Shown here piece by piece: positions 41,795 through 50,112 of a stretch of DNA of 64,000 nucleotides (the stretch's first letter is position 1; the number at the start of each line of letters is the position of its first letter). The notes under the pieces were generated by a model, which searched no databases, was not told the DNA's origin, and saw nothing but the letters and a program-made list of their open reading frames with translations. The DNA is from Barnesiella viscericola DSM 18177 (lineage in GTDB: Bacteria; Bacteroidota; Bacteroidia; Bacteroidales; Barnesiellaceae). The position numbers were made by a program, and so were the translations under genes. The stretch lies in NCBI RefSeq assembly GCF_000512915.1, contig NZ_CP007034.1, positions 2,232,001 through 2,296,000 on the forward strand, given 5' to 3'.

Positions 41795-43309
41795 TTATTT
41801 CAACAGGTCGTGCCCCGTCATTTCGGCCGGTTGAGGCAATCCCATGATGTGGCAAATCGAAGGAGCCACATCGGCCAGGATACCGTTCTCGACACGAGCC
41901 TCTTTGTTCTCGGTCACATAGACAAACGGCACGGGGTTGAGCGAGTGTGCCGTGTTGGGCGTACCGTCGGGGTTCTCGGCATTGTCGGCATTACCGTGGT
42001 CGGCAATGATGATTACCTCGTAGCCGTTGGCCTTGGCAGCCTCGACCGTATCGCGCACGCAGGCGTCGATGGTCATCACGGCTTTCTCGATAGCCGAGTA
42101 GACGCCGGTGTGACCCACCATGTCGCCGTTGGCATAGTTTACGACGATAAAGTCATATTTGTTCTCGTTGATGGCGGCGACCAGTTTGTCTTTCACCTCG
42201 TAGGCGCTCATCTCGGGCTTCAAATCGTAGGTGGCTACCTTGGGCGACGGTACCAGAATACGGTCCTCACCCTCGAACGGAGCCTCGCGCCCCCCGTTGA
42301 AGAAGAAGGTTACGTGGGCATATTTCTCGGTCTCGGCAATGTGCAGCTGGCTCTTGTGCAGTTTCGACAGATATTCGCCCAGCGTGTTGTGCACGTTCTC
42401 CTTGTCGAAGAGGATATGCACGCCCTTGAACGAAGCGTCGTAGGGAGTCATGCAGTAATATTGCAGACCGGGAATGGTGTGCATGCCGGCCTCGGGCATA
42501 TCCTGCTGCGTGAGCACGATGGTGAGCTCTTTGGCACGGTCGTTACGGTAGTTGAAGAAAATAACCACATCGCCCTCCTTGATGCGACCGTCGCAGGTCG
42601 TGTTGACGATAGGCTTGATAAATTCGTCGGTCACATCGGCGTCATACGACTCCTGCATGGCCTGCACCATGTTGTCCGACTTGCGGCCGATACCGTTGAC
42701 CAACAGATCGTAAGCCTCTTTGATACGCTCCCAGCGTTTGTCCCGGTCCATGGCATAGTACCGACCGATAATCGAAGCCACCTTGCCGGCCGAAGCAGCG
42801 CAGTGAGCCTCCAAGGCCTCGATAAAGCCCTTACCACTGTGGGGGTCGGTATCACGACCGTCCATGAAGCAGTGGATAAAGGTATTCTCCAAACCATATG
42901 CTTTGGCAATGTCGCACAACTTGAACAGGTGGTCGAGCGAACTGTGTACGCCACCGTTCGAGGTCAATCCCATGAAGTGGATATTCTTGCCGTTGTCACG
43001 GGCATAGGAGAAGGCCGAAACGATCTCTTTGTTCTGCATGATGGAGTTGTCGGCACAAGCCTTGTTGATTTTCACCAGATCCTGGTAAACGATGCGGCCG
43101 GCACCGATATTGAGGTGACCTACCTCCGAGTTACCCATCTGACCGTCGGGCAAACCCACATTCTCGCCGCTGGCCTGCAACTGCGAGTGAGGATAGGTTT
43201 TCAACAGATAGTCCCAATAAGGAGTAGGGGTATTGTAGATTACATCTGCATGCGTATGATTGCCGATGCCCCAGCCATCGAGAATCATCAAAAGTGCTTT
43301 TTTGCTCAT
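41795..43309 (-). CDS. gpmI: 2,3-bisphosphoglycerate-independent phosphoglycerate mutase
   Basis: A glycolytic enzyme of 504 residues, of the manganese-dependent alkaline phosphatase superfamily. Asp11 (LDGWG) is a metal ligand, Ser61 in GNSEVGH the phosphoryl acceptor, and [12 protein letters not shown] carries the second metal cluster. [16 protein letters not shown] is the expected C-terminus. It has its own promoter about 200 bases upstream and a terminator. Confidence 0.96.
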
Positions 43310-43505
43310 CTCTTCTATTATTTAGAGTTATTTATCTTCTATTCTATGGCCAACAAAAACAGTGCCGGAATCGTTTCGGCCGCCGCATTCACGGCCTGCC
43401 GCATCATCGCGGCCCCGCTCTGTCAAAATGTCGCGTTGCCAAGAGGCTGTTCGCCAGCAGTCATACCGTCGCGGCCCGCCAGCCTCCTGCCTTGCATTTC
43501 TCTTG

Positions 43506-43536
43506 CAAAGATAGTGCAAACCGCGGGCATCGCAAA
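43506..43536 (-). promoter_or_regulatory. gpmI promoter
   Basis: Minus-strand TTTG (43533-43536), a 19-base spacer, TATCTTTG (43506-43513). The leader is nearly 200 bases. Confidence 0.65.
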
Positions 43537-43646
43537 ATTTATTTCAATTCGTTAAGGGACAGCGTAAACTTTCTTCCCCACAGAAAACAAGAGCTATCTC
43601 ACGACATCTAACCCAACCATATCATTTTATATATTTTTATATACAA

Positions 43647-43678
43647 TTGATTTGTTTAAGAAATATTTATTATATTTG
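43647..43678 (+). promoter_or_regulatory. Promoter of the exported four-gene cluster
   Basis: TTG 43647-43649, a 21-base spacer, TATATTTG 43671-43678, giving a leader of about 255 bases. Confidence 0.55.
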
Positions 43679-43938
43679 TAAGTCTGTAAGCCTTTTCTCT
43701 AAGGCTCACAGAAATCAAAGGGGCGTTTATACGCTTGTCTTCGAGGTTTCAACTTTGGCTCCTCTACGGAGAGAAAGAGTCGGCAAATCGAACCATTCAT
43801 GTCGAAGCAGCACCTATTGATTGAAGAATAGGGGGCAATTAAAAGTCATGGAACAAGGGGAACAAGCCAGACACGATCTCACGTCTCTTCATTTAAACAT
43901 CGTCTTGACGAGATCGTAAGACACAGGAAAAACACATT

Positions 43939-46146
43939 ATGAAAGCCAAATTGTTTTTATTGGGGCTTATTTTGTTTCCTTTTTTTTCGTTCGCGCAACA
44001 ACCTACACGAAACGAACTGCTCATGCTCTATTACCAGGCCAACCTTGCTGCCAACAACGGTCAGATAGACTCGGCGCTGGTCAAGTATCAAACCATTATC
44101 AACCTGGTGCCCCGCTATGCCGACCCCTATCTGAAAGCGGCTCAACTATGCGAAAAATATGCCGACACCGACCCCAAGTGGCTGGAAACGGCCATTGCCA
44201 TGTATCGTCTGTACCTTAATCTCGAACTCGACGACACCCGATCGGCCCAAGCCACCCTCCACCTGAGGGCTCTCGAAGACAAGTTATCAATTCCCCACTT
44301 TGACGAGGAGTTGACCAATAACCAGGGAGCAATGGAGGACTATGCACCGGGTATCGAGACTCCTGACCTGACTCTCACACCAACATCAACACCAACACCA
44401 ACACCAACACCAACACCAACACCAACACCAACACCAACACCTACACCTACACCTACACCTACACCACCAGCTGTTCAACAGCCGGTCGAGAATTCTCACG
44501 AAGGCCTCCTTGCCGAATCTCTGGCCAAAGCCACCGAGAATCAACTCTTTATCAATCCCTATACGATAGAAATTGTCCCGGGCAACACCTCGAACAGCCA
44601 TGCTTTGGATCAACCCGACCTGAAAAAGCTCTGCGGCCGATGGGTTTCGTTATCACGCATGAGCGATGGCCGCGAAGCCTGGATCATCGACATCGAAGAA
44701 CAGCAGGGCGAACTGAGAGTCACACTCTGCCCCAACTCGGGTATATTCAACCTGCCCCAGTGGCAACAAACCTTCCTGAAAGGACGCTCGTCGCTGCTAT
44801 CGTTGGCCAACGATTTCAGTGTGGTAACTACACGCCCCGACATCACACTGGGTACCATGAAGATGTTTGACAACTTGCAATCCAAAGTAACCAGCGGCCA
44901 TATCGATGAAAAGGCATGTATCTTCTCCTTCAAATACAACATAAACCTCACCTATACCCCCACGGCCAACAAATACGACTGGGCCAAATCGGGCATTCAG
45001 TTTTTAGGCTCGCTAATCGGAGGGCTCACCGGTTTGAACATTCTCAATACGCTGATAACCAATGTAGCGAACAATCTGATTGACAAGACCAAGAGTTCCG
45101 ATACCAACATCAACTACACGGGGTCGATTGCCTTCTCGCTGAAACCGAGCAGCGGTTTCATGACCGGATCCTGCAAAGAGTCGCTCACCGAATCGCAAAC
45201 CAGAGGTTCGCAAGAAAAGAAAAATCGCATCTTCGAAACCGAGTTTTGCAAGGTCGACTCTTATTACCCCGGCTACTCGGGAAACTATACCACCAAAACC
45301 GACGATGTCATCGCAAAGGAAAAAGCCATACTGGAACAACTGGAAGAGGCGGAGGAGACCCCCGAGAATCAATATCTCCTGGGTATGCTCCATGCCTATA
45401 ACTATGGAGAGAAGGAGTTTTTCGAATCGCCCCAATACTCCAAAAAGGCCATGCAAGCACTACAAAAAGCCGCAGCCGACGGAAACATCGAGGCTTTATC
45501 ATTCCTGTCCAACTATTTCTTTTGCCTATCGCTGGGCGATAAAATCGATGAACTGCCCCAATCCTACGGCTCCTCTTCGATGGACATCATCATGGCCAAT
45601 GCCTCGCTCCCGCCCAAGAACGTAAGAAAGGCTTCGCTTCAATACGCTCAGGAATATCTGGCCAAACTGCAACAAATGGCTCCGGCCCGAGCCAAAGTAA
45701 TCGAAGCCGAATATAAAATAAATAAAAACCGGGACGTCGATGCAGCCCTCTACCTCTTCAAGGAGGCTGCCCAACAGGGCGACGCTACGGCCATGAACCG
45801 CACGGGCGAACTATTGCTCTTCGACTACAACAAGCCCCAAGAAGCCTTTGAATGGTTCTCGAATGCCGCCCAACGAAATGAACCCAATGCCATGTTGAAC
45901 CTCGCCCGGCTCTATCGCGACGGAATAGGGGTAGGAGAAGATGTATCACAATATATCACATGGGCAGAACTGGCTTATAAATATGGTAATCTGGAAGCCC
46001 TCGACGAACTCTCCGACGCCTATACCAAAGGCATCGGGGTCAACCAAGACTACAATCAGGCCCTGCGATATATCGACCTGAAACAGGAGATTGCTCACGA
46101 CCGATATACCTACCTGCTGAAAATAAATGAAATAAGAAATATATAA
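43939..46146 (+). CDS. Exported TPR/Sel1-repeat protein with a Thr-Pro linker
   Basis: A 735-residue protein. Signal peptide (residues 1-19, FSFAQ), an N-terminal TPR-like region (about 20-125), a (Thr-Pro)n linker near 147-175 encoded by a hexanucleotide array, a globular region (about 200-440), then Sel1/TPR-like repeats from about 480 to the end (for example AALYLFKEAAQQGDATAMN and PNAMLNLARLYRDGIGVGED). Sel1 repeats bind partner proteins. I do not recognise the middle domain. It leads a four-gene cluster of exported proteins after a long leader. Confidence 0.8.
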   Translation: MKAKLFLLGLILFPFFSFAQQPTRNELLMLYYQANLAANNGQIDSALVKYQTIINLVPRYADPYLKAAQLCEKYADTDPKWLETAIAMYRLYLNLELDDTRSAQATLHLRALEDKLSIPHFDEELTNNQGAMEDYAPGIETPDLTLTPTSTPTPTPTPTPTPTPTPTPTPTPTPTPPAVQQPVENSHEGLLAESLAKATENQLFINPYTIEIVPGNTSNSHALDQPDLKKLCGRWVSLSRMSDGREAWIIDIEEQQGELRVTLCPNSGIFNLPQWQQTFLKGRSSLLSLANDFSVVTTRPDITLGTMKMFDNLQSKVTSGHIDEKACIFSFKYNINLTYTPTANKYDWAKSGIQFLGSLIGGLTGLNILNTLITNVANNLIDKTKSSDTNINYTGSIAFSLKPSSGFMTGSCKESLTESQTRGSQEKKNRIFETEFCKVDSYYPGYSGNYTTKTDDVIAKEKAILEQLEEAEETPENQYLLGMLHAYNYGEKEFFESPQYSKKAMQALQKAAADGNIEALSFLSNYFFCLSLGDKIDELPQSYGSSSMDIIMANASLPPKNVRKASLQYAQEYLAKLQQMAPARAKVIEAEYKINKNRDVDAALYLFKEAAQQGDATAMNRTGELLLFDYNKPQEAFEWFSNAAQRNEPNAMLNLARLYRDGIGVGEDVSQYITWAELAYKYGNLEALDELSDAYTKGIGVNQDYNQALRYIDLKQEIAHDRYTYLLKINEIRNI
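44376..44468 (+). repeat. Hexanucleotide tandem array encoding Thr-Pro repeats
   Basis: About 15 units of ACACCA, the last four drifting to ACACCT, inside the 43939 gene. Because the unit is six bases, changes in copy number alter the linker length without breaking the frame. Confidence 0.9.
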
Positions 46147-46254
46147 TCACACGAAAGCAATCAGTATGAGTGGTTTCACAGTCTCTTCTTTCAAGCCAGG
46201 CATCTAACCGATGCGGCCACATAAAGAGGGGGACGATAACGGATAAGAGGATTT

Positions 46255-47340
46255 ATGAAACTTCGATTGATATTCCCGGCAGTACTCCTGCTCATCGGTA
46301 CGAAAGTCCAGGCCCAGAACCAGATTCTGGCCGACTTGCATCTGCCCGAAACGCTCTGCGACACAACTGTCGATATACCCGCCGTCTCGGACAAAAAGAT
46401 TATCATCGAGTGTGACCCTGTCACCCAAAGCCGTCACGTGGGCATCTCGCTATTCAGTCCCGAGAGCAAAGAGATGATCGGGCGCCCCATTTGCGAGTTT
46501 CTCGAGCGACTGGCCCTGCAACTGTGCATGACCTCGACCCTCGACGAAGCAACCACCTACTTGAAGAGAAAAGGCATTGACCTCACTTTCAACGGCAAGC
46601 CCTATGGGTCGGAGCAGTTCAAATCGATGAGACGGGTTATCGATGCAGCCATCATTCCGTCGGACTTTCAGTTGACCGACTCGGACAAACGTTTCCACGC
46701 CACATTCTACTTCAACCTGTTCGACCGGCTCGAAATCGAGTTCCCAGCCTCCCGCGAACTTATCTTCGGCACCGACAAGAAAACGGCCGACCAGGAGATT
46801 TATGCCACCCTACTCTCCTCTACCGATTCGGCTTCGCTCCCCCCACACGACCTGCCTCCCATCGCATCGTTATACAACGACTCGACCGGACTGTATGTGT
46901 CGAAGGGGAAGTCGTTCATGCTCGACATTCTCAACGAGAACAAATACTACACCCTCGACGACAAGGGCAACCTGCATGTGCTCTTCTCGCCCGAGTACCC
47001 CGAACAGTCGGTGCGCAACGTGATGTGGGGAATTACCGACATAGACCCTCTGTTTTGTGTCACTCACCGAATGTATGGAGGCTACACCCCGTCGTTCGAA
47101 CTGCGGCTCTCCAAACTGTTCCAGACATTCGCCGACGATTTCACTCCCTATATAGGCACTCAGATGCTCGACGAGCAGACGTTACAATGTGTCATCGTAT
47201 TTCACAACAACACCTATCATTATCTGCACATGATTGTCTGCTCGATTTCGATTGGCGAAATCGGGCAACTTGCCACGAAGACTATTCAGGCCGACTTTTT
47301 CAGCAACATTCCCCAGCATAACTTGAAAAAATTATTTTAA
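46255..47340 (+). CDS. Exported protein of unknown function (second in the cluster)
   Basis: A 361-residue protein with a signal peptide (about 1-20, TKVQAQ). The rest is mixed alpha/beta with four or five cysteines (for example LHLPETLCDTTV, LALQLCMTSTL) but no motif I recognise. It comes 108 bases after the TPR/Sel1 gene and 11 before the next, so it is co-transcribed at least with the latter. Codon use and base composition match the neighbours. Confidence 0.7.
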   Translation: MKLRLIFPAVLLLIGTKVQAQNQILADLHLPETLCDTTVDIPAVSDKKIIIECDPVTQSRHVGISLFSPESKEMIGRPICEFLERLALQLCMTSTLDEATTYLKRKGIDLTFNGKPYGSEQFKSMRRVIDAAIIPSDFQLTDSDKRFHATFYFNLFDRLEIEFPASRELIFGTDKKTADQEIYATLLSSTDSASLPPHDLPPIASLYNDSTGLYVSKGKSFMLDILNENKYYTLDDKGNLHVLFSPEYPEQSVRNVMWGITDIDPLFCVTHRMYGGYTPSFELRLSKLFQTFADDFTPYIGTQMLDEQTLQCVIVFHNNTYHYLHMIVCSISIGEIGQLATKTIQADFFSNIPQHNLKKLF

Positions 47341-47351
47341 CTTTCAATTAC

Positions 47352-48329
47352 ATGAAAAGGATATTCATATTCATCGCTGCGTGCTTCATCATCTTCACAT
47401 CGAAAGCACAATTAGAAAACACCCGATTTGAAATTACCGAAGGCATTGCCGATGCCACCCTCCAAAAAGCGATGGAGAAGAACGCCTCGCTGCTGCTATC
47501 GTCGTTCAACACCGCGGTCATGGAGGGCAAAAAACCGAAAATTGACAAAGACTGGTGTACCGACGGCGCCAAGAAAAGCATCGAGGAGCTTTGGAAAAAC
47601 TCGACTATCGCTTGCCCCCTCTCTCTGGTCAAAGAGAAAGTAACCCGACTGCCGGGTGGCGGATACCAAATACGCAACATAGCCATCACCGTATTGTCGG
47701 CCCCCAAGGATAAGCAGGACCAGGAGATTGTTATCAATTTCAGTAATCAAGGATTAATCGACTATGTGAACATAGCTCTCGAACAGAACCGCTACGTCGA
47801 CATTATCGGAGCCAACATCTCGCTGAAAGACTTTGCCCGCCGGCAAATCATCGTGGACTTCGTCGAGAGTTTCCGAACTGCATACAACCGCAAGGACATC
47901 AAATACATCGAATCGGTATTCAGTGACGACGCCTTGATTATCACCGGCAAGGTCATCAAGGTAAAGAAAAGCGACAACCCCTATTTCAACTCCCTGGGAA
48001 GGGAACGGGTCGAATACATGACCCAGTCGAAAGCCCAATACATTGCCGGTCTGAAACGATGCTTCAAACGCAACAAATATATCGACGTGGAATTTGAAGA
48101 CATCGAGGTGATGCGCCACCCGGCCAATCCCACCATCTACGGGGTGACCCTCAAACAGGAGTGGGGATCCAGCACCTACAACGACACCGGCTTCGTGTTC
48201 CTGCTCATCGACTTCAAGGACGAGACCCAACCGTGTATCCAGGTGCGCACCTGGCAGCCCGAGCGTTACAACAACAAAGTACTGGATCGCAACGAACGAT
48301 TCAGCCTCGACTCCTTCAACATTCACTAA
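47352..48329 (+). CDS. Exported protein with an NTF2/SnoaL-like domain
   Basis: A 325-residue protein with a signal peptide (1-20, TSKAQ). Residues about 30-160 look like an alpha/beta domain; from about 165 the stretch DFVESFRTAYNRKDIKYIES then VFSDDALIITGKV is the start of an NTF2/SnoaL-like cone, a fold that binds small ligands or partner proteins. No catalytic residues are clear. Third in the cluster, with short gaps both sides. Confidence 0.7.
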   Translation: MKRIFIFIAACFIIFTSKAQLENTRFEITEGIADATLQKAMEKNASLLLSSFNTAVMEGKKPKIDKDWCTDGAKKSIEELWKNSTIACPLSLVKEKVTRLPGGGYQIRNIAITVLSAPKDKQDQEIVINFSNQGLIDYVNIALEQNRYVDIIGANISLKDFARRQIIVDFVESFRTAYNRKDIKYIESVFSDDALIITGKVIKVKKSDNPYFNSLGRERVEYMTQSKAQYIAGLKRCFKRNKYIDVEFEDIEVMRHPANPTIYGVTLKQEWGSSTYNDTGFVFLLIDFKDETQPCIQVRTWQPERYNNKVLDRNERFSLDSFNIH

Positions 48330-48344
48330 TCAAACCTCCACTTC

Positions 48345-49673
48345 ATGAAAAAACTGATTATTCTCATTCTCTTATTCATACCACTTTACAGTCACGCGCA
48401 AAAGATGCTCGAGGTAATCGACATAAGCAACACCGCATCGATTGATATTTTTGCCCACGAAGACCGCAAAGAGGCATTGATCCGGTTCGTATGCGACAAA
48501 TCCATGGAACTGATATTCAAGAGCAACTACGATAGCCCTTACCATAAGGACATTCTCTCGATAACCATCGACACCATAGGAACCGACAAACAATACTCGC
48601 TGGTTATTCCTACCGAAGGGAAGGGCACCAGCTACGACGGTCGAATACTGACCATCTACTGCAACGGATTCGACAAATACGAAATGCCCAATTTCAATTT
48701 CCCTGCGGGTCTGGCCAAAACCTATCAGGTGTCCGACCCCTATCGGAAGCTGAAAAATCCCTATTTCCAAGCCATAGACAACGCCACCAAACTGTTTGCC
48801 TCCGGTAACTATATCCAGGCCAAAACCCAGTTGGCACTGGCCAAACAAACGCCTGAATACAAGCTCTACAACGACTCGGTCGACTATAAGATGGCCGCCG
48901 CAGACTCCATCATCAAATGGCGCGACTTGGGCGATGCCGCTTTAAAAGAGATCAACTACATGACTGCGAGCCGATATTTCGACAAAATTTTGAAACTGAA
49001 TCCGCAAGACGAATATGTACGCGACAAGTACGAGAGTACCTTGATCTCCATGTCGACCGACTGCCAGAACTATTTCATGCTGGCCGAAGATCTGTTTGCC
49101 AACAAAGACTATGATCGGGCCCTGACCTATTACCAGAAAATCATCGACCAGGAGTGTATTCTCGCCACACAGGCCCAGGAAAAGATACTCTACATCAAAG
49201 ACTGGAAAGAATCCCGAAAATCAAAATCCGAGTTCTTCGTGTATGAATACAACCCCACGACCCCCATCGGGTTCTCGGTTGGTACCTGCAACACTCACAA
49301 AAGCGGAGGCTTCTTTACCCTGCGTACCAACGTCGATGTGTTTCATGCCATGAAGGGTGTCCCCGACGAGTTGATACACCCCCGAGCCAATGTCGCCTTC
49401 GGCTGGGTTATTAAAGTCTACCCGCCGGTTTGGTTCACACTCGGACCCGGATATTCGGGGCACGGTATCTGGAAAACGGTTCTTGACGAAGACAACGAAG
49501 AGGAGCACGAATTTGTCTGGGCCAACGCCATATCACCCGAGGTGGGTGTCATCGTAAAATTCTGGCACATCACCCTCAAATACTCGTTCCAATACAACTT
49601 CAACCTGGAACCGTCGTACAGCGACATGTTCAAGAAAATGGGACATTACGTCGGTATTGGTGTCTGCTGGTAA
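48345..49673 (+). CDS. Exported TPR protein with a C-terminal barrel-like domain
   Basis: A 442-residue protein: signal peptide (1-18), an N-terminal beta domain (about 20-125), a TPR segment (NATKLFASGNYIQAKTQLAL, then ASRYFDKILKLNPQDEYV and DYDRALTYYQKIIDQE; about 145-285), and a C-terminal region of aromatic-alternating strands (KVYPPVWFTLGPGYSGHG, ITLKYSFQYNFNLEP) ending in VGIGVCW, which looks like an outer-membrane or lipocalin-like barrel. Last gene of the four. It may couple a periplasmic scaffold to the outer membrane; this is an inference. Confidence 0.72.
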   Translation: MKKLIILILLFIPLYSHAQKMLEVIDISNTASIDIFAHEDRKEALIRFVCDKSMELIFKSNYDSPYHKDILSITIDTIGTDKQYSLVIPTEGKGTSYDGRILTIYCNGFDKYEMPNFNFPAGLAKTYQVSDPYRKLKNPYFQAIDNATKLFASGNYIQAKTQLALAKQTPEYKLYNDSVDYKMAAADSIIKWRDLGDAALKEINYMTASRYFDKILKLNPQDEYVRDKYESTLISMSTDCQNYFMLAEDLFANKDYDRALTYYQKIIDQECILATQAQEKILYIKDWKESRKSKSEFFVYEYNPTTPIGFSVGTCNTHKSGGFFTLRTNVDVFHAMKGVPDELIHPRANVAFGWVIKVYPPVWFTLGPGYSGHGIWKTVLDEDNEEEHEFVWANAISPEVGVIVKFWHITLKYSFQYNFNLEPSYSDMFKKMGHYVGIGVCW

Positions 49674-49713
49674 AACAGCCCCACTCCTTCATATGATTTG
49701 GTTACAAAAAAAT

Positions 49714-49745
49714 AAAAACCGCACCGATAGCTCGGTGCGGTTTTT
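49714..49745. terminator. Bidirectional terminator between the cluster and rplS
   Basis: AAAAACCGCACCGA (49714-49727) pairs perfectly with 49732-49745, loop TAGC. T runs at both ends let it stop both convergent units. Confidence 0.9.
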
Positions 49746-49764
49746 ATATGCCTCGGAAAAGAGA

Positions 49765-50112
49765 TTAAACTCTCTTCTCTTTGATACGGGCTTTTTTACC
49801 GGTGAGTGCACGCAGATAGTACAATTTGGCGCGACGCACTTTACCACGACGGTTGATTACGATCTCTTCGATGAACGGCGACTCGATGGGGAAGATTCTT
49901 TCTACACCTACGTTGCCCGACATCTTGCGAACCGTAAAACGCTTTTTGTTACCGTGACCCGAGATACGGATAACGTCCCCGCGGAATTGCTGGATACGCT
50001 CCTTGTTACCCTCTTTGATACGGTAAGATACGGTAATCGTGTCACCACTGCGAAAATCGGGGTGCTCTTTACCGCATGCGAATGCTTCTTCTGCAATCTT
50101 AACTAAATCCAT
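49765..50112 (-). CDS. rplS: 50S ribosomal protein L19
   Basis: A 115-residue protein, the usual length. [28 protein letters not shown] and the conserved [12 protein letters not shown] segment, then [14 protein letters not shown] with the basic tail. L19 lies at the 30S/50S interface. In many bacteria it belongs to the rpsP-rimM-trmD operon; here it stands alone with its own -7 box and a shared terminator. Confidence 0.97.

Follow-up and report, generated by a model that had tools for sequence, protein, structure and literature searches.

A conserved and optional four-gene unit in Barnesiella viscericola: a candidate operon for an outer-membrane-anchored periplasmic sensing complex

We analysed 64,000 nucleotides of the Barnesiella viscericola DSM 18177 genome, which is complete at 3.08 Mb (contig NZ_CP007034.1, positions 2,232,001 to 2,296,000). 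This whole stretch is called the window below, and positions are counted from its first letter. It contains four consecutive open reading frames (ORFs), here named A, B, C and D, which form a conserved unit. Within the genus A-B-C-D occurs as optional cargo; beyond it, an exported core of wider occurrence in the Bacteroidota has A-B-C-D as one of its branches. We read it as an accessory operon for a periplasmic sensing complex that would be anchored in the outer membrane, a reading that we hold to be evenly balanced between right and wrong. A first-pass annotation of the same DNA had proposed a candidate undescribed complex that spans the periplasm. Of that proposal, a conserved unit and a predicted outer-membrane part stand, and no published description was found among the matches listed, judged by titles and abstract openings; the window locus, however, has no inner-membrane part.

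Conservation and optional presence of the unit

A-B-C-D is found in the same order, contiguous and on one strand, in nine loci (the window, L002, L034, L035, L152, L155, L156, L157 and L158), two of them in the window's genus and seven in a second family, f111. Synteny in relatives was the check that the first-pass annotation had named, and in these loci the four genes are kept together. Because the order is preserved in another family at ~25–45% protein identity, the grouping exceeds what chance would give. A fifth exported gene, E, precedes A in 7/7 of the f111 loci and in 0/2 of those in the window's genus. One further locus (L153) carries E-B-C-D, in which B is short and A was not called, and the sequence of another (L154) begins inside B. 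In a quick tree the C proteins of the 11 loci of (E)ABCD type make up one clade, with a Shimodaira-Hasegawa-like approximate likelihood ratio test (SH-aLRT) value of 99.

Full-length C was present in 2/9 genomes of the window's family, the window's own included, and a third genome holds the C-terminal part of C only, within a longer frame. C is carried by 9/15 genomes of f111, and matches of some kind were found in 33/295 genomes of the order and 25/395 of the phylum. Wider neighbourhoods of C were inspected in 21 of the 33 order genomes, the window's included, and 12 were left out. From the phylum search we used 18 loci with a C of standalone length besides the window and G113, leaving out fused-length matches and weak matches of 394–398 amino acids (aa). 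L053, a duplicate of L002 from the same contig, was excluded from the counts and the tree, six rows of the fused form were left out of alignment A9, and several loci are cut by contig ends. In phage and plasmid records C had no match at E <= 1e-5, and on this ground spread by plasmids or phages was rejected.

Within the genus, the unit lies between gpmI and rplS. Among nine genus genomes this site holds A-B-C-D in two, is empty in two, has other cargo of 2.6–6.0 kb in four, and in the last the contig ends inside rplS. The empty sites have ~390 (G001) and ~350 (G005) bases between gpmI and rplS, and G005 gives cassette limits near-identical to those obtained from G001 (Table 1). G001 is a near neighbour of the window genome, with flanking proteins 96–100% identical; a site occupied in one genome and empty in a very close relative makes a clean natural experiment. 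The bidirectional terminator with which the first-pass annotation closed the unit exists, as a 16-pair stem, but it belongs to the rplS flank and not to the cassette, because the flanking sequence in which it lies persists where A-B-C-D is absent.

Seen over the window (43309–49765) and L163–L168, gpmI-rplS is a site of variable cargo, being empty or holding a BspA-type leucine-rich repeat (LRR) protein, a pectate-lyase-like protein or A-B-C-D. The BspA-type LRR proteins, with a sorting tail of the kind used in type IX secretion (T9SS-type), were confirmed by Pfam in G003 and in G002, there beside A-B-C-D, and recognised by eye in G004, G007 and G008. The pectate-lyase-like cargo is sub-threshold in G003 (23.2 vs 27 bits) and was seen by eye in G008. 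A defence-island context in the window's genus was considered and rejected, since by eye, and with no PADLOC run there, the hot spot held these LRR and pectate-lyase-like proteins.

Predicted properties of the four products

All four ORFs start with ATG on the + strand, and their positions, direction and intergenic gaps of 108 (A/B), 11 (B/C) and 15 (C/D) bases are those that the first-pass annotation had given. It had also assigned a signal peptide to every product. Consistent with this, A to D each have a hydrophobic N-terminus followed by an 'A/Q' boundary (FSFA/QQP, KVQA/QNQ, SKA/QLE and SHA/QKM, respectively; the slash marks the boundary), and from these signal-peptide-like starts they are likely to be exported. 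Beyond the N-terminus, all 19-residue Kyte-Doolittle windows of B, C and D are <=1.2, and A has a single later hydrophobic stretch above 1.2, at residues 351–377. We infer that the four genes are co-transcribed. Promoters of Bacteroides carry a −7 element with the consensus TAnnTTTG, to which the candidate TATATTTG is the sole match in 43301–43960, the stretch scanned upstream of A. An RNA element in the leader was also considered and rejected, the single match being CrcZ, whose 16 bits fall short of the gathering score of 95.

The four products do not each fall into a well-known unrelated family, and the descriptions of A, B and D in the first-pass annotation held up. D, described there as a TPR protein with a barrel-like end, was modelled with a mean predicted local distance difference test (pLDDT) score of 82.3, and the model contains a TPR arm and an 8-strand barrel. 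The barrel superposes on Ail (3qrc; Z 14.6, root-mean-square deviation (rmsd) 3.0, 130 aligned) and OmpX (1qj9; Z 14.5, rmsd 3.0, 129 aligned), and on known 8-strand barrels overall with an rmsd of 3.0–3.5 over 130–133 residues, at a sequence identity of ~10% to Ail/OmpX-type barrels. A Foldseek search with the barrel returned nine matches at E <= 0.001, all nine of them outer-membrane barrels. The C-terminal Trp and the signal-peptide-like start fit an outer-membrane location as well. D is thus predicted from its model to be an outer-membrane protein with an OmpX/Ail-like barrel, in line with the outer-membrane part that had been proposed. Its TPR repeats fall narrowly under the Pfam cut-offs (TPR_2, 26.1 vs 27).

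A had been described as a TPR/Sel1 protein with a Thr-Pro linker. Its Sel1 repeat (PF08238) lies above the Pfam cut-off (35.2 vs 30.7 bits), the linker is encoded by 15 units of 6 bases, and the middle domain received no family assignment in profile searches, in which the Sel1 part also matched MotX chains. Across the order 62/295 genomes match A. Among the matches listed, those of the window, G118 and G298 alone extend well past the Sel1 part, and a few others cover the linker only or a short TPR segment; A as a widespread family was rejected, the order-wide matches being mostly limited to Sel1. The Thr-Pro linker is a 6-base microsatellite whose length and sequence differ in the sister species. 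Since changes by whole units keep the reading frame of A, the linker may vary by slippage.

For B, expected to be a mixed-fold protein without a family, Pfam and NCBIfam searches gave no family at E <= 1, and its model (mean pLDDT 86.5) found nothing among solved structures at E <= 0.001 with Foldseek. A known fold for B was rejected, as only weak NTF2-like matches were obtained (best VIA-align Z 4.8, rmsd 3.9 over 96 residues, for residues 245–356), from a comparison list that hardly tests the first 200 residues. A tandem duplication within B, suspected by eye, was rejected as well, a profile comparison of the two halves giving 0.3% probability. In C, a PF24125 match at E <= 0.01 is present in 8/11 of the proteins scanned, the window's C among them, and Pfam found no carboxypeptidase domain in the latter. 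Invariant residues were identified across 29 C proteins.

Table 1. Features of the A-B-C-D locus (positions in the window)
Feature	Position	Strand	Remarks
Inserted cassette, approximate extent	43562..49705	+	window stops matching the G001 empty site at ~43561 and resumes at ~49706
Gene A	43939..46146	+	735 aa: signal peptide, TPR-like N-terminal part, Thr-Pro linker, middle domain without assignment, C-terminal part of Sel1 type
Gene B	46255..47340	+	361 aa; mixed alpha/beta fold without family match
Gene C	47352..48329	+	325 aa; N-terminal domain without assigned fold, NTF2-like C-terminal part (sub-threshold match)
Gene D	48345..49673	+	442 aa: N-terminal beta-rich domain, TPR arm, C-terminal beta-barrel (model)
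Candidate -7 promoter element TATATTTG	43671..43678	+	fits TAnnTTTG; ~260 bases 5' of the ATG of A
6-base repeat ACACCA x15	44377..44466	+	encodes the Thr-Pro linker of A
Sel1 repeat of A, residues 686-711	45994..46071	+	PF08238
C-terminal part of B, residues 245-356	46987..47322	+	weakly NTF2-like
Csd6-type NTF2-like stretch of C, residues 222-290	48015..48221	+	PF24125, sub-threshold
TPR arm of D, residues 137-292	48753..49220	+	superposes on TPR proteins (model)
8-strand outer-membrane barrel of D, residues 293-442	49221..49673	+	last residue Trp; model
Bidirectional terminator	49712..49747	.	16-pair stem; common to rplS, flank not cassette

A wider exported core and its links to cytosolic proteins

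In 37 loci with a standalone C, B lies immediately upstream of C or one gene further in 24, and a gene termed X lies directly upstream of C in 24. E is found within three genes of C in eight other loci of the 37. These 37 do not include four later loci, namely L190 (G063), which was used separately, and three that are fragments or carry an unclassified C; moreover, the labels B, X and MORN-like derive partly from profiles seeded with these very loci. B and C, adjacent on one strand in the window, fit this B-X-C core, of which A-B-C-D is a branch. In the two loci of the window's genus neither X nor E was found in the operon. E and X look related by profile comparison (92.6% probability, E 4.7e-07, 8% identity, signal peptides included). 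The gene directly after C gives a PEGA-type profile match in 10/37 loci, which Pfam confirmed in all three of those scanned (L037, L126 and L154). A second, common form of C is the C-terminal part of longer proteins, mostly of ~590–675 aa, and this fused form has its own branch of the tree, bar one long-branched row.

Some observations stand beside this core. Two C genes share one cluster in L154 (492–6945), as B-C-D followed by X-C-PEGA/Sel1, so that two module types adjoin. An E-like gene lies elsewhere in the window genome, at G000:C1:1619663 (L160, 7959–9380; G000:C1 ~1618958–1620379), with a similar one in G005, and both are preceded by a gene of 421 aa.

In several Bacteroidales loci the exported genes are preceded by a protein with a transmembrane-like (TM-like) stretch and a MORN-like end. 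In 7/8 of such proteins examined the TM-like stretch is internal, and in the eighth (L135) it is N-terminal and signal-peptide-like. The MORN-like protein of G286, G081 and G113 has a CxxC motif ahead of the TM-like stretch and lies downstream of a gene for a tubulin-like protein of ~1030 aa (PF13809). In G245 the tubulin-like and MORN-like genes stand at a contig end and B-X-C is on another contig. Elsewhere a single protein joins the MORN-like end to a TIR domain (G030, 53.8 vs 28 bits), to a protein kinase (G146, 98.7 vs 31.7 bits) or to a TIR-like domain narrowly under the cut-off (G063, 27.6 vs 28 bits). The last, at L190 6129–7896, unites TIR-like, TM-like and MORN-like parts in one protein directly before C, a second case besides L040.

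Strong matches to the MORN-like profile (E <= 1e-11) occur in 7/295 genomes, of which six were seeds of the profile and G063 was found independently; the match adjoins C in six, the seventh being G245. At E <= 0.001 the count is 35/295, and the weaker 28 mostly cover a third of the profile. PF13809 was also above cut-off in five other genomes with no C match, so the tubulin side is not exclusive to these loci. In the tubulin-linked locus L036, the product of the final gene has its N-terminal part in common with D, as judged by profile matches to D proteins. This linkage of genes in the relatives suggests transmembrane signalling.

In the window, A to D matched no Pfam TIR family and had no PADLOC hit, and TIR elsewhere in the genome was not sought. 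A three-gene unit converges on D in three of the f111 loci (L156 3883–8308, L157 3877–8292 and L158 3–3123). Its products in L156 are a TIR-Sel1 protein, a small protein with an RyR domain and a large one that has no clear family. At this position L157 and L158 carry ORFs similar in size and start; TIR-Sel1 was confirmed by Pfam in L156 and L158, and RyR in L156 only. The relation of this unit to the operon is one of adjacency only.

Candidate functions and nearest described systems

Under the reading of A-B-C-D as an outer-membrane-anchored sensing complex, D would be held in the outer membrane by its OmpX-like barrel, with the TPR arm and beta-rich domain reaching into the periplasm. The long TPR/Sel1 protein A, which is predicted to be exported and has a flexible Thr-Pro linker, may serve as a scaffold onto which B and C would dock, and the NTF2-like part of C would most likely read a cell-wall or envelope ligand. 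Assembly into a complex is suggested by the gene order. Wall sensing is suggested by the weak Csd6/Pgp2-type match of C, by the peptidoglycan association of Sel1 and PEGA described elsewhere and, weighing most, by the linkage of the core to TIR, kinase and tubulin-like proteins. For Campylobacter Pgp2, binding of peptidoglycan by the NTF2 domain is reported (PMC8038945), and PEGA and Sel1 are presented as peptidoglycan-associating parts of conflict systems (PMC7159879). The complex would then form the exported half, the sensing one, of a Bacteroidota module of wider occurrence; in some relatives a TM/MORN-like protein would continue this module across the inner membrane to a TIR, kinase or tubulin-like protein. 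In the window genome signalling might run through an unlinked partner, or the complex may be a purely envelope-binding structure.

Several results weigh against this reading. Neither a cytosolic nor an inner-membrane partner lies in cis at the window locus. As candidate partners elsewhere in the window genome, PF13809 and the MORN-like domain were rejected, neither being matched at E <= 0.001 (unlinked TIR or kinase partners were not sought). This lack of coupling in cis speaks most strongly against a signalling role in the window, where the function may instead be purely structural or at the surface. The NTF2-like character that the first-pass annotation gave to C stands as a sub-threshold match to PF24125 ('Cds6_C'; E 6e-05, 23.7 bits under a cut-off of 27), and the C profile gave chance-level matches only among solved structures, with no NTF2 fold. 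The domains of D are well modelled, but their mutual arrangement is uncertain because the predicted template modelling (pTM) score is only 0.41. Since the D relative in L036 (361 aa) seems to have no barrel, outer-membrane anchoring is supported, by the model, for the window's branch only. Furthermore, the label LPP20 (PF02169) for X and E comes from sub-threshold matches or profile comparison. All matches of X are sub-threshold (L121, 17 vs 25.9 bits), as is the best match, that of the fused form in L044 (25.4 vs 25.9), and at E <= 0.1 LPP20 was found neither in X of L037 and L154 nor in E of L034, L035 and L152.

A broader interpretation can be offered only tentatively, as one that we consider less likely than not. 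Here the module is an envelope-spanning device in which an exported chain of D or its counterpart, C, X and B would report the state of the wall or envelope to a MORN-like periplasmic domain borne by a TM helix, which would switch on an exchangeable TIR, kinase or tubulin-like part in the cytosol. The window operon would be a branch in which a Sel1 scaffold has replaced the cytosolic part, and the anchoring in the outer membrane would apply at least where D has a barrel. The apparent lack of a barrel in the D relative of L036 and the sub-threshold LPP20 label weaken this interpretation.

Among the alternatives, A-B-C-D may instead be a surface or outer-membrane accessory complex without signalling, for adhesion or for glycan or protein display, and so one more secreted or surface cargo of the gpmI-rplS site. 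The BspA-type LRR and pectate-lyase-like proteins found there, the lack of a cytosolic partner at the window locus and the modelled barrel of D are all in favour of this, yet no adhesin or carbohydrate-binding family exceeded the cut-off in A to D (Pfam, NCBIfam) and the exported core is linked elsewhere to cytosolic TIR, kinase and tubulin-like proteins; we consider it rather unlikely. An envelope-facing defence, in which the exported chain would sense damage or phage entry and trigger a cytosolic part, with the window operon as its sensing half, is improbable. The TIR and kinase parts of relatives do give PADLOC hits to TIR-like and kinase-like defence proteins, but these hits are generic, and neither A, B, C and D nor the tubulin-like protein had a PADLOC hit at E <= 0.01. 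TIR-Sel1 and RyR-domain genes (L156), or similar ORFs (L157 and L158), do stand beside the operon in 3/9 A-B-C-D loci, and PEGA and Sel1 are known from conflict systems, as noted above. Against this, inspection by eye of the hot-spot ORFs in other species of the genus, with no PADLOC run on them, showed nothing that looked like defence, and C was without matches in phage and plasmid records. That four unrelated exported proteins have become neighbours by chance in the genus would accord with the patchy distribution of full-length C in the window's family; the shared order in nine loci of two families, together with the single C clade, argues so strongly the other way that we rejected chance neighbourhood on synteny and regard it as highly improbable.

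If the sensing interpretation is correct, the gene order marks an envelope-sensing module that would tie the outer layers of the cell in Bacteroidota to TIR, kinase or tubulin-like proteins of the cytosol, and these would gain a route to the cell surface where otherwise none is obvious. Moreover, testable partners would be gained for proteins for which no family was found (B, E) or which have repeats only (A).

The nearest described kind of system is, by analogy and not by membership, that of modular TM-linked conflict systems (Kaur et al. 2020, PMC7159879). That paper describes GTPase-centric and iSTAND systems whose peptidoglycan-binding domains are linked to a TM segment. In their modular neighbourhoods, PEGA, Sel1 or NTF2 parts on the far side of the segment go together with NTP-dependent (nucleoside triphosphate-dependent) parts, and some include tubulin homologues. 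In contrast, the core here consists of individual exported proteins in a chain (B, X, C, D), with an outer-membrane barrel predicted in the window's group, and the window locus has no NTP-dependent component. No exported core of this kind was seen described there, and the terms MORN and LPP20 do not occur in the main text of that paper.

Likenesses to other systems are confined to single parts. Vibrio flagellar rings have Sel1-repeat and LPP20-type parts, among them MotX, FlgT and FlgP. The match of the Sel1 part of A to MotX, and the sub-threshold resemblance of X and E to LPP20 proteins, recall these rings; the repeat type or domain alone is common to both, and no flagellar gene was seen in these loci. 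The C-terminal part of C weakly matches the NTF2-like domain of the Csd6/Pgp2 carboxypeptidases, whereas the window's C stays under the gathering cut-off and has no carboxypeptidase domain. Lastly, the modelled barrel of D resembles those of OmpX, Ail and OmpA, from which D differs by the TPR arm and the beta-rich domain ahead of the barrel.

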